Made by a program: the position numbers and the translations under genes. From Bacteroidota bacterium (GTDB lineage: Bacteria; Bacteroidota; Bacteroidia; Bacteroidales; Lentimicrobiaceae), in NCBI GenBank assembly GCA_009773515.1, contig WSXX01000021.1, positions 1-64,000 of the forward strand: a stretch of DNA of 64,000 nt. The letters run 5' to 3'. This document shows, piece after piece, positions 3,123 through 17,821 of the stretch (within the stretch, counting starts at the first letter, position 1; each line of letters starts with the position of its first letter). Under the pieces are notes generated by a model. That model was not told where the DNA came from and did not search any database. It saw nothing but the letters and a program-made list of their open reading frames with translations.

Positions 3123-3193
3123 TGTCCGATGGTGTAATGGTAGCACAAGAGATTTTGGTTCTCTCGGTCTAGGTTCGAGCCCTGGTCGGACAA
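3123..3193 (+). tRNA. tRNA-Gln (anticodon UUG)
   Basis: The cloverleaf can be folded by eye. The acceptor arms TGTCCGA (3123-3129) and TCGGACA (3186-3192) pair perfectly. The anticodon stem AGAGA/TCTCT encloses loop TTTTGGT with anticodon TTG, and the T-arm contains GGTTCGAGCC. Base 3193 is the discriminator, and CCA is not encoded. It lies ahead of rimP-nusA-infB with a terminator hairpin between. It is also about 11 kb from a GatDE-type amidotransferase that acts on Glu-tRNA(Gln). Confidence 0.93.
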
Positions 3194-3254
3194 CAGTAAA
3201 AAACAATCACCCCGCTGCAGATTATCGCGCGTCTCAATGGTGAAGCTAAGTTGA

Positions 3255-14321: not shown

Positions 14322-14353
14322 TTTGTAGTATTGCAAAAAATCCTGTAGGTTTG
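14322..14353 (+). promoter_or_regulatory. Bacteroidota promoter of gatE-gatD
   Basis: TTTG (14322-14325), a 20-base gap and TAGGTTTG (14346-14353) match the -33/-7 consensus TTTG-N19-21-TAnnTTTG. The ATG of gatE follows 24 bases later. A normal bacterial promoter here indicates that the archaeal-type genes are integrated into host expression. Confidence 0.65.
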
Positions 14354-14376
14354 AGGCCTTTAAAACACCTCCCATA

Positions 14377-16338
14377 ATGAACCAGAATTTCGACCCCAGG
14401 GAAAACTACATTAAAACCAAAGAAGCCGCCGGATACGTCCCCCGTGCAAAAGCTACTCAGAAAACTTATGATGAAATAGGTTTTATGTCTGGCCTTGAAG
14501 TGCATCAGCAACTCAAAACCAAAGAGAAATTATTTTGCCACTGCCCTGCCGGCATTTATAATAAACCAAATGTTTTTGATGCGGAAGTAATCAGGCATAT
14601 GCGGCCAACGCTGAGTGAACTCGGTGAATATGACGGCACTGCACTGATGGAGTTCAAAACCCGAAAAAATATAGTTTATCGTTTGAAAAACGAAACCACC
14701 TGTACTTATGAAGTGGACGATACGCCACCGTTTCCGGTGAACCGCGAGGCACTTAATATTGCCATTGAAATATCGCTGCTTTCGAAACTGAATATTGTTG
14801 GAGAAGTACATATCACCCGTAAACAATACCTTGACGGAAGTATACCAACCGGTTTTCAACGAACCGCTATTATTGGTGTTGAAGGTGAAATTCCCTTGAA
14901 AAATAAAAAAATCCGCCTTATACAGTTAAGTCTTGAAGAAGACTCATGCCGTGAGGTTTCAGATATAGGACATACCAGGATTTACAGAACCGATCGTTTG
15001 GGAATGCCTTTGATCGAAACAGTAACTTATCCCGAAATGGTTAATCCGGATGAGGTAAAAGAAGCTTGTGATTATATCCGCTTTCTGAACCGGAGCACCG
15101 GAAAAGTAAGAACCGGAATTGGCGCCGGAAGGCAGGATGTAAATGTCAGCTGCCGCGGAGGTGTACGTGTTGAAATTAAAGGCGTTGCCCATACCCGCTG
15201 GATTCCAGAACTCACCCACAATGAGTGCTTCAGGCAATGGTCGTTGCTGATGCTTCGCGATAAGCTTGTGAATGAAATCCCCGATCATAAAGACTGGAAA
15301 ATCGCTCATACGCAGCTGGATTATTATGATTTCAATTTCAGCTATCAACCGCTGAAGGACAATAAAGACCGGAAAAACAGGATTATAGCCATAAATTTAC
15401 CCGGATTCAACGGAGCACTTTCGCATTTTACGCAACCCGGCAAAATGTTTGCCAACGAGTTGATTGAGCGGCTGAAAGTTATCGCATGCCTCGAAGTTCC
15501 AAACCTTACCCATACCGAAGAGTTTGAGCCTGTAATTCAGGAAAAAGACTGGCAACAGATCAAAACGGCACTTAAAGCGTCATCAAACGATGCACAGTTG
15601 GTGATCTGGGGACCGGACGATGATATGAAAACCGCGCTTGAAACCATTGAAGAGCGCTGTAAAATGGCTTTCGCAGGAATTCCCAACGAAACCAGAAAAT
15701 CGTTTGAAAACGGAACAACAATCTTCGAACGTGTGCTGCCTGGCGCTGACCGCATGTATCCCGATACCGACAGTGCGCCGATTCCTCTTGAAGATTCATT
15801 GATCACAGAATTGGGAAGCAATCTGCCACAGGAAATAGTTGACAGATATAACATCATGAAAGAATGGGGAATTCCTGAAGATACATACACTTATATTTTC
15901 AAGAAGAACCTTTTTCCGTTGATTGAAAAAATTGTAGATGAACTGAAATATGATCCTGCATTTGTAGGCAAGCTTTTCGGACATAAGCTTAAGTTTGTTG
16001 AAGGACATTCAAAGCCGGTAGCCGAATTTTCGTACAAAATCGTTTATGGTCTGCTTAAATTCATCAGCGATAAAGGATTAACTCCAGAAGTTGCCTGGCT
16101 TATGCTTCCGCATGTTTATGAGCACCCTAAACTCGATTTTGAATCGGTGCTTATCAGCATAAAGTTTAAGAAGGTCGCTAAAGAGCAATTGTTTGGCAGT
16201 GTTCCGTTCCTGAAATCGAAGTTTGCAGAAATTCAGCATACGGATAAAGCCGGCAACGAAAGAGACTGGATCATGGGGCAGCTCAGAAAAATGGCGATTG
16301 GTAATGTGAGCCTTACTGAACTGGCCGCCAGTCTTTGA
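14377..16338 (+). CDS. gatE: Glu-tRNA(Gln) amidotransferase subunit E, archaeal type
   Basis: GatE is the kinase/amidotransferase subunit that converts Glu-tRNA(Gln) to Gln-tRNA(Gln), using ammonia released by GatD. The 653-residue protein shows the GatB/GatE signature GLEVHQQL (39-46), metal-site cysteines in LFCHCPAGI, and the GatE-type sequences EFKTRKNIVYRL and DGSIPTGFQRTAIIG. It is about 150-170 residues longer than bacterial GatB, as expected for the AspRS-like insert of GatE, and has a C-terminal helical/YqeY-like tail (LPHVYEHPKLDFESVLI). Together with gatD downstream (97 bases, no terminator) it forms a complete GatDE pair. The family is regarded as archaeal, so transfer is likely. 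GatB is less likely given the length and the GatD partner. Confidence 0.9.
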   Translation: MNQNFDPRENYIKTKEAAGYVPRAKATQKTYDEIGFMSGLEVHQQLKTKEKLFCHCPAGIYNKPNVFDAEVIRHMRPTLSELGEYDGTALMEFKTRKNIVYRLKNETTCTYEVDDTPPFPVNREALNIAIEISLLSKLNIVGEVHITRKQYLDGSIPTGFQRTAIIGVEGEIPLKNKKIRLIQLSLEEDSCREVSDIGHTRIYRTDRLGMPLIETVTYPEMVNPDEVKEACDYIRFLNRSTGKVRTGIGAGRQDVNVSCRGGVRVEIKGVAHTRWIPELTHNECFRQWSLLMLRDKLVNEIPDHKDWKIAHTQLDYYDFNFSYQPLKDNKDRKNRIIAINLPGFNGALSHFTQPGKMFANELIERLKVIACLEVPNLTHTEEFEPVIQEKDWQQIKTALKASSNDAQLVIWGPDDDMKTALETIEERCKMAFAGIPNETRKSFENGTTIFERVLPGADRMYPDTDSAPIPLEDSLITELGSNLPQEIVDRYNIMKEWGIPEDTYTYIFKKNLFPLIEKIVDELKYDPAFVGKLFGHKLKFVEGHSKPVAEFSYKIVYGLLKFISDKGLTPEVAWLMLPHVYEHPKLDFESVLISIKFKKVAKEQLFGSVPFLKSKFAEIQHTDKAGNERDWIMGQLRKMAIGNVSLTELAASL

Positions 16339-16435
16339 AAATAACAAACAGAGAATAGAAAAACCGGCAACAGGAAGAAAAAAGAATTCAACCACCGGAA
16401 AATAAGGGATTAAATCACAAAAGAAAAAACAAAAA

Positions 16436-17821
16436 ATGGCTGACGATATTTTTCAGGGATATAAAGGATTGGCATTGGAAGTGCTGAAAAAGTGGAATGT
16501 AAGGGTATGGGGGCAAGCTGATGTTACAACAACCCGTGGTTTGTTCAAGGGAACCATACTTCCCCGATCGGAAAACGACGATGACAAACACATTGTGATG
16601 AAGATTATCACCGGGTACAATGTAGGCGTTGACATTGCCACCATCACTGATATGAAGGAAACCGGCTATAAAAAAGCCAACTATAAAATTCCTGAAAAGG
16701 AGTTTCCATACACTCAGGGACTACCCAAAGTAAAACTGATAGGCACAGGAGGAACCATAGCTTCAAGGCTCGATTATCGGACAGGTGCCGTTATTCCTGC
16801 GTTTTCGCCGGGAGAATTATACGGTGCAGTGCCTGAGTTGGCCGAAATCTGTAATCTCACTACTGAAAAGGTTTTCGCGGTATTCAGCGAAAATATGGCT
16901 CCGGATCATTATCGCAAACTCGCCATCGCCATTGGCAAAGAAATTGAAAACGGTGTTGATGGAATTGTAATCGGCCATGGAACAGACACACTTCATCATA
17001 CTGCCGCTGCACTTACCTATATGGTTCAAAATCCTCCGGTGCCCATTGTATTGGTTGGATCGCAAAGATCATCGGACAGGCCAAGTTCTGACGCAGCCTT
17101 GAATCTGATGCATGCCTGCACAACAGCCGGGCATGGCGATATTGCTGAAGTAATGGTGTGTATGTTTGGTCCAACCAGCGATGAATACGGGTTTTTGCAC
17201 CGGGGAACAAGGGTAAGAAAAATGCACTCTTCATACCGTTCAACATTCCGCACCATTGGTGATACTCCGCTTGCAACAGTCACCCGCAGAGGTGTTGAAC
17301 CCATCAAAAAGGAATACAATCACCGTCGCAAAGACCGGAATGTAACCATATTGCCTTACTTCGAAGAAAAAGTAGCCATCGTTTATTACTATCCTAATAT
17401 GCAACCCGACATTATTGATTCGCTTGTGCAGAACGGATACAAAGGCATTGTGATTGCAGGCACCGGGCTGGGACATGTAAATAAACCCATTTACCCTGCC
17501 ATTGAGCGTGCTCATGCCGCCGGAGTTCATATGTATATGACTGTTCAGACATTGTGGGGCTATGCACATATGTTTGTTTACGACACAGGGCGTGACCTGA
17601 TGGCCAAAGGCATTATTCCTGCAGCCAATATGCTTCCTGAAGCTGCTTACATCAAACTGGGGTGGGCACTTGGACAAACAACCGACCACGAGGAAGTTAA
17701 GAGACTGATGCTGACTCCTGTTAATGATGAAACCACTTCAAGAGAACCCTACAATGGTTACCTTGTGTATCAGGGTGGAGTTTCTGAAGTTGAGGATTTT
17801 ATCAAAAAAGTCAGGAAGTAG
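16436..17821 (+). CDS. gatD: Glu-tRNA(Gln) amidotransferase subunit D, archaeal type
   Basis: GatD is an asparaginase-like glutaminase that supplies ammonia to GatE. The 461-residue protein has the GatD-specific N-terminal beta-barrel domain (about 1-90), absent from ordinary asparaginases. The asparaginase fold follows with LIGTGGTIAS (about 101-110, catalytic Thr), GHGTDT (180-185, second catalytic Thr and Asp) and GSQRSSDRPSSDA, a hallmark of GatD. The ATG follows an A-rich leader after gatE. Its order after gatE and the shared strand indicate one transcript. An asparaginase of unrelated function is unlikely because of the N-terminal domain and neighbour. Confidence 0.9.
   Translation: MADDIFQGYKGLALEVLKKWNVRVWGQADVTTTRGLFKGTILPRSENDDDKHIVMKIITGYNVGVDIATITDMKETGYKKANYKIPEKEFPYTQGLPKVKLIGTGGTIASRLDYRTGAVIPAFSPGELYGAVPELAEICNLTTEKVFAVFSENMAPDHYRKLAIAIGKEIENGVDGIVIGHGTDTLHHTAAALTYMVQNPPVPIVLVGSQRSSDRPSSDAALNLMHACTTAGHGDIAEVMVCMFGPTSDEYGFLHRGTRVRKMHSSYRSTFRTIGDTPLATVTRRGVEPIKKEYNHRRKDRNVTILPYFEEKVAIVYYYPNMQPDIIDSLVQNGYKGIVIAGTGLGHVNKPIYPAIERAHAAGVHMYMTVQTLWGYAHMFVYDTGRDLMAKGIIPAANMLPEAAYIKLGWALGQTTDHEEVKRLMLTPVNDETTSREPYNGYLVYQGGVSEVEDFIKKVRK

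Follow-up and report, generated by a model that had tools for sequence, protein, structure and literature searches.

Genes for a predicted archaeal-type GatDE amidotransferase in Bacteroidota and their co-occurrence with glutaminyl-tRNA synthetase

The window analyzed here, 64,000 nucleotides of contig WSXX01000021.1 (assembly GCA_009773515.1; Lentimicrobiaceae, Bacteroidales, Bacteroidota), carries two genes, gatE and gatD, for a predicted Glu-tRNA(Gln) amidotransferase, GatDE. The window is part of a 92-kb contig in a genome of 5.03 Mb (97.2% complete, 1.19% contaminated), which also encodes glutaminyl-tRNA synthetase (GlnRS). Both reading frames were full-length and unbroken, head to tail on the + strand with 97 bases between them, and no terminator-like site between them was listed; an earlier note on this DNA, written by a model without database searches, had described the pair as adjacent and intact at the same place, and this was confirmed.

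GatE exceeded the curated cut-offs of two NCBI equivalog (NCBIfam) models, NF003107 barely (458.8 bits; cut-off, 456) and TIGR00134 (409.3 bits; cut-off, 319.6), and was far under the cut-off of every GatB model (best, 108.5 bits; cut-off, 314.8). GatD exceeded those of TIGR02153 (490.3 bits; cut-off, 324) and NF003217 (491.6 bits; cut-off, 310), and contained the GatD_N domain (PF18195 of Pfam, used for domains; 37.3 bits, cut-off 25.7) and the stretch QRSSDRPSSD. A profile built from ten bacterial GatE sequences, that of the window among them, was searched against the PDB and matched archaeal GatE at 355.7 bits (2d6f_C) and 353.5 bits (1zq1_C), which we take to be the enzymes of Methanothermobacter thermautotrophicus and Pyrococcus abyssi, respectively. 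The archaeal match covered positions 33-658 of the 660-position profile, and GatB structures gave at most 100.6 bits. Archaeal GatD matched GatD of the window at 381.2 (1zq1_A) and 370.5 bits, versus 130.3 bits or less for asparaginases. These results bore out the earlier note in assigning GatE to the archaeal subunit type, and the N-terminal domain and QRSSDRPSSD stretch by which it told GatD from asparaginases are both present; an asparaginase-type GatD, named there as a counter-case, was not found in this profile comparison. By sequence, gatE and gatD are assigned to archaeal-type GatDE.

Table 1. Features of the window that bear on GatDE. Positions 14322-17821 take in the promoter candidate as well as both genes.
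Feature	Position	Strand	Basis
gatE (653 aa), subunit E of the Glu-tRNA(Gln) amidotransferase	14377-16338	+	profile and structure matches
gatD (461 aa), subunit D of the same amidotransferase, an asparaginase-like amidase that carries the GatD N-terminal domain	16436-17821	+	profiles
Promoter candidate, Bacteroidota-type, TTTG-N20-TAGGTTTG	14322-14353	+	pattern search; 23 bases before the gatE ATG
tRNA-Gln (UUG), possible GatDE substrate; U1-A72, A73	3123-3194	+	ARAGORN, sequence

Five residues of GatE (E41, H43, E187, E188, and E214), which by comparison with GatB structures we take to be its active-site acidic and histidine positions, showed no variation across the 139 GatE loci and the two archaeal structures. 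Among 120 GatD loci, T107, T183, and D184 were invariant, and K262 was present in all but one, which has a gap there; these are presumably the amidase residues that correspond to T101, T177, D178, and K254 of the M. thermautotrophicus enzyme. In comparisons with six relatives, nonsynonymous divergence (dN) was 0.13-0.20 in gatE and 0.05-0.08 in gatD, and synonymous divergence (dS) was 2.2-2.5 or saturated beyond computing: both genes are under purifying selection. The order of the genes was also mostly kept, gatD being located 3' of gatE and in the same orientation in all but one of the 120 loci that yielded it; the gap between them was estimated at a median of 26 bases and reached about 2 kb at most. 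In 19 of the 139 loci, a first test did not find gatD beside gatE: its start is visible in six (L005, L006, L081, L103, L315, and L326), less than 0.8 kb of DNA remains after gatE in four (L050, L065, L090, and L323), and no gatD was found in the 1.4-3 kb remaining after gatE in nine (L004, L009, L049, L052, L053, L060, L064, L071, and L072), where it is either elsewhere or absent. This conservation fits the description of the pair in the earlier note as adopted by its host. In one relative, glnS lies directly upstream of gatE (G039:C78:20808-24321), linking genes for both routes to Gln-tRNA.

Among 198 genomes of the same order (Bacteroidales), GatE over the cut-off was found in 84, together with two partial genes under it (G047 and G095). 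A phylum-wide sample of 395 genomes, searched at E <= 1e-60, contained 30 genomes with GatE over the cut-off: that of the window and 29 outside its class, from seven families and including single-contig genomes (hereafter, the second class). The two samples differ in quality: completeness of 90% or more together with contamination of 5% or less applied to 371 of 395 and 167 of 198 genomes, respectively. A scan of GTDB species revealed at least 582 places encoding a GatE relative; among the best 80 of these, 79 carried titles of Bacteroidota groups and one was titled 'uncultured bacterium', and the closest was from a Lentimicrobium metagenome-assembled genome (83% identical). No GatE relative was found in the viral contigs searched, and phage records gave partial matches only (25-32% identity). 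Thus, gatDE recurs in two groups of the phylum and is not an isolated oddity. GatDE is treated as archaeal in passages of PMC9499178, PMC8007984, and PMC7373986, and the earlier note had likewise given archaea-specific as the accepted view of the family; in the light of the present distribution, this textbook restriction to archaea looks wrong. Searches of the open-licence literature, which leaves out most subscription papers, turned up no report of bacterial GatDE. The protein family itself is already known and recognized by NCBI models; the new elements are its occurrence in another domain of life, how widely bacteria carry it, and its presence alongside GlnRS.

A phylogenetic tree was constructed for GatE only (FastTree, 92 sequences). 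Besides GatE of the window, it included the full set of 30 G loci from the order, 27 taken from the 80 named loci, 29 loci of the second class, three archaeal GatE and, as the outgroup, two GatB sequences. The 87 bacterial and three archaeal GatE were split from GatB by a long branch (support, 0.96), so that GatE grouped apart from GatB in the comparison that the earlier note had proposed as a check. Archaeal GatE formed one group (support, 0.998) and bacterial GatE another (support, 0.785). Within the latter, 27 sequences of the second class formed a clade with a support of 1.0, and 59 sequences, including the window and all Bacteroidales used, formed a clade with a support of 0.96 and a branch of 0.97. 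Two sequences departed from this pattern: GatE of G551 (L335) was long-branched and basal to the bacterial group, and is perhaps a separate acquisition, while that of G353 (L337), a genome of the second class, fell inside the Bacteroidales clade and was likely transferred between the classes. One of the three archaeal sequences derives from a haloarchaeal gene read as two separate parts, and with only three the tree cannot tell whether, or when, bacteria received GatDE from archaea. The old transfer from archaea proposed in the earlier note is plausible; bacterial GatE stands beside, not inside, the three archaeal sequences. On a plasmid record of Natrinema thermotolerans (L144:3001-4655), a GatE-like gene lacking annotation gave its match in two pieces, a possible frameshift.

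Distances in GatE followed those in GlnRS and glutamyl-tRNA synthetase (GluRS) within the second class. Mantel correlations among 19 genomes, with G353 and G551 left out, were 0.86 for GatE and GlnRS, 0.83 for GatE and GluRS, and 0.86 for GlnRS and GluRS, and those among 21 genomes, with these two included, were 0.58, 0.61, and 0.83, respectively (21 of the 26 genomes with GlnRS were used). On this basis, the second class appears to have a long history of joint inheritance of GatDE and GlnRS. Vertical descent of GatE inside Bacteroidales was weakly supported: r was 0.50 with GlnRS (10 genomes; permutation p, 0.015) and, not significantly, 0.33 with GluRS (8 genomes; p, 0.17).

The genome of the window encodes GlnRS in a 572-aa frame (752.5 bits; cut-off, 425.8) with the PPEPNGYLHIGH and VMSKR stretches, and a single, intact GluRS in a 510-aa frame. 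No match to the Amidase family (GatA) was found in this genome at E <= 0.001, and there was no second GatB-type protein, GatE being the sole protein with a GatB_N domain. The earlier note had suggested a whole-genome search for glnS, gatA, and gatB, and had left open whether GatDE replaces or duplicates Gln-tRNA formation: replacement of GlnRS fails in this genome because GlnRS is intact, and duplication stands. A full GlnRS was present in 79 of the 86 GatE-bearing genomes of the order (the two with partial GatE counted) and in 98 of the 112 GatE-free genomes, the latter count being obtained by subtraction from 177 genomes over the GlnRS cut-off, so that the two groups do not differ (Fisher p = 0.36); in the second class, it was present in 26 of the 29 GatE-bearing genomes. 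Since most GatE bearers have a full GlnRS, their usual state is GlnRS together with GatDE, potentially two routes to Gln-tRNA(Gln). According to a passage of a 2014 paper (PMC4206432), no bacterium was known to encode both routes. These genomes are candidates for doing so because GatDE is described as a Gln enzyme and GatCAB as serving Gln and/or Asn (passages of PMC8007984 and section 18 of PMC9499178). As side observations in the order, a GatB-like protein occurred together with GatE and GlnRS in three genomes (G050, G085, and G089), and four genomes (G077, G181, G014, and G154) had a GatB-like frame measuring about 490-500 aa and lacked a full match to GlnRS.

Two genomes of the second class, from two genera of one family (G482 and G509; 99% complete, about 40 and 20 contigs, respectively), encode GatE along with a frame of the GluRS type, about 490 aa long, and no GlnRS was detected in either of them. 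Gene order near glnS was not kept among their family relatives, and the loss of GlnRS therefore rests on these two good assemblies only; GatDE is possibly their sole route to Gln-tRNA(Gln), judging from gene content. A third genome of the second class, G446, had only a 135-aa frame as its GlnRS match, and this lack is likely an assembly gap. GlnRS loss in two Bacteroidales was considered and is unsupported: the G075 assembly has a contig that breaks off beside a repeat, immediately ahead of where glnS would be expected, which makes an assembly gap likely, and in G034 the matches to the sister genome are scattered over contigs. A palindromic intergenic repeat of about 85 bases (L261:7275-7360) occurs in many copies in the related G075, whose assembly breaks beside such a place. 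Five further GatE-bearing Bacteroidales without GlnRS (G009, G127, G130, G141, and G180) are 78-88% complete; GluRS was compared for three of them, and G127 and G130 gave no GluRS match among the 30 genomes searched.

The genes were observed to be intact, to belong to the GatDE family, to keep their active-site letters, to be under selection, and to co-occur with GlnRS and GluRS, and we consider it probable that GatDE is an active Glu-tRNA(Gln) amidotransferase beside GlnRS, acting as a second route or in the repair of Glu-tRNA(Gln). The products of gatE and gatD would form a working heterodimer, in which GatD would free ammonia from glutamine. Asparagine would be an alternative ammonia donor. 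With ATP, GatE would then amidate Glu on tRNA-Gln to yield Gln-tRNA(Gln), a reaction expected from family membership. Two routes would thereby run in the cell, direct charging by GlnRS and amidation by GatDE of any Glu-tRNA(Gln) that the single GluRS may form; the physiological role of the second would be either a regular supply or the repair of mischarged tRNA.

Several observations weigh against an active second route. Amidation by GatDE in these bacteria is a prediction from sequence. GatE is absent from 112 of the 198 genomes of the order, and no other genome of the window's own class in the phylum sample has it, so that GatE is dispensable. In section 18 of PMC9499178, archaeal tRNA-Gln is described as having A1-U72 and A73, and archaeal GatDE as reading A1-U72. 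Two tRNA-Gln were found in the genome of the window (30 of 39 tRNA matches were typed), one with UUG in the window and one with CUG just after glnS. Both have A73 and the bacterial U1-A72, a property of the host tRNA, rather than the A1-U72 signal of archaeal GatDE. A tRNA-Gln model search of 52 genomes (27 GatE-bearing and 25 GatE-free), from which the stronger matches were taken, recovered tRNA-Gln from 26 and 25 of them, respectively. In these 51 genomes, U1-A72 was found in 47 of 48 tRNA-Gln from GatE-bearing and in 39 of 39 from GatE-free genomes, and the counts for A73 were the same. Co-evolution of tRNA-Gln with GatDE was consequently rejected for positions 1, 72, and 73, where there is no difference by GatE presence, as was A73 as an archaeal trait of the window genome, since A73 is a general feature across the order, whether GatE is present or not. 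Finally, GluRS has Arg at the position of R358 of the Thermus thermophilus enzyme in 51 of 51 genomes, seven of which have GatE but lack a detectable GlnRS; this residue presumably marks a discriminating GluRS. Because it is common to all 51 genomes, those seven included, it is not diagnostic of the mischarging of tRNA-Gln.

Some features of these tRNA genes were noted in their own right. In the genome of the window, tRNA-Gln(CUG) (L002:3167-3240) follows directly downstream of glnS (L002:1375-3093), forming a glnS-tRNA cassette. The same cassette was found in six of the 30 other glnS loci typed, five in GatE-bearing genomes (G050, G103, G048, G098, and G158) and one in a GatE-free genome (G006), and, by coordinates, in the GatE-free G064. 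tRNA-Glu of the window genome (L165:1501-1573) has an apparent G1-U72 wobble pair, not G1-C72.

As tRNA-Gln is unchanged with GatDE at positions 1, 72, and 73, an active enzyme would have to accept U1-A72. We tentatively suggest that both routes may have run in Bacteroidota for at least class-level time with GatDE refitted to U1-A72 tRNA-Gln, and that in G482 and G509 GlnRS was lost and GatDE became the only source; this fuller scenario is possible, but we do not hold it as probable.

Another explanation is that GatDE serves mainly in quality control: GluRS would be discriminating, and GatDE would clear erroneous Glu-tRNA(Gln) and so protect Gln codons. The retention of GlnRS in most GatDE genomes (79 of 86 and 26 of 29) and the R358-type arginine in GluRS speak for this explanation; however, the two 99%-complete genomes with GatE and GluRS and no detectable GlnRS do not fit it, unless GatCAB supplies their Gln-tRNA, and the same arginine is present in those genomes. 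We regard a mainly quality-control role as unlikely.

It is more doubtful still that GatDE amidates another substrate, such as Asp-tRNA(Asn), for tRNA-dependent synthesis of asparagine as proposed for GatCAB of Bdellovibrio. There is a precedent for an amidotransferase beside GlnRS and asparaginyl-tRNA synthetase (AsnRS) in a passage of PMC4206432, and a tRNA-Gln without the archaeal A1-U72 suggests that specificity has shifted somehow. However, archaeal GatDE is described as a Glu-tRNA(Gln) enzyme (section 18 of PMC9499178 and a passage of PMC8007984), and the matches are to GatE along its length.

That the pair is a relic or a neutral passenger without a present function is very improbable. 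It would be redundant with GlnRS in most bearers and, being missing from 112 of the 198 genomes of the order, is dispensable; on the other hand, dN is far under dS, active-site letters are invariant, gene order is kept, and the promoter motif is enriched upstream of gatE. The motif TTTG/TAGGTTTG (spacer, 19-21) occurred four times in the whole window versus 1.65 expected, with at least four in 9 of 100 shuffles, and a single occurrence is by itself weak. A looser form (spacer, 17-23) was found no more than 200 bases upstream of gatE at 21 of 107 Bacteroidales loci, compared with 4 of 428 gene-internal control stretches, and the Bacteroidota promoter that the earlier note had placed in front of gatE is a fair description.

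An archaeal contig contaminating a bacterial assembly, the other counter-case of the earlier note, has a negligible probability: gatDE shares its contig with ordinary Bacteroidota genes (Fe/Mn superoxide dismutase, two CarboxypepD_reg/TonB-type genes, a Por secretion tail protein, a glycosyltransferase, and CinA), G+C is even (0.41-0.44 in the gatDE region; 0.37-0.48 over the whole window), and the best 80 GatE loci are in Bacteroidota-titled assemblies, except for the 'uncultured bacterium'. gatDE sits in a genuine bacterial chromosome.

The wide and conserved bacterial distribution of GatDE undercuts the archaea-only premise, and many genomes now offer GlnRS together with an amidotransferase of the Glu-tRNA(Gln) type. 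Why two routes are kept, and whether GluRS of these bacteria mischarges tRNA-Gln, thus become testable questions.

Compared with archaeal GatDE (2d6f and 1zq1), the system described here has the same two subunits, aligned over nearly their full length, and the same Thr/Thr/Asp/Lys positions of GatD and acidic and histidine positions of GatE, but differs in its bacterial host, bacterial-type GluRS, intact GlnRS, and U1-A72 tRNA-Gln; archaea are described as lacking GlnRS (section 18 of PMC9499178). Bacterial GatCAB performs the chemistry predicted for GatDE, and the GatB_N domain is common to GatB and GatE, whereas the genome of the window has neither an Amidase-family match nor a second GatB_N protein, and GatB structures fall well below archaeal GatE in the profile search (at most 100.6 versus 355.7 bits). 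Type I/II asparaginases share their asparaginase domains with GatD but score lower (at most 130.3 versus 381.2 bits), and GatD carries GatD_N and pairs with gatE. A parallel in gene content is GatCAB beside AsnRS and GlnRS in Bdellovibrio, Deinococcus, and Thermus, where an amidotransferase also occurs together with direct synthetases; as described in a passage of PMC4206432, however, theirs is a GatCAB whose known or proposed use is in making Asn-tRNA(Asn), and not a dedicated Glu-tRNA(Gln) enzyme.

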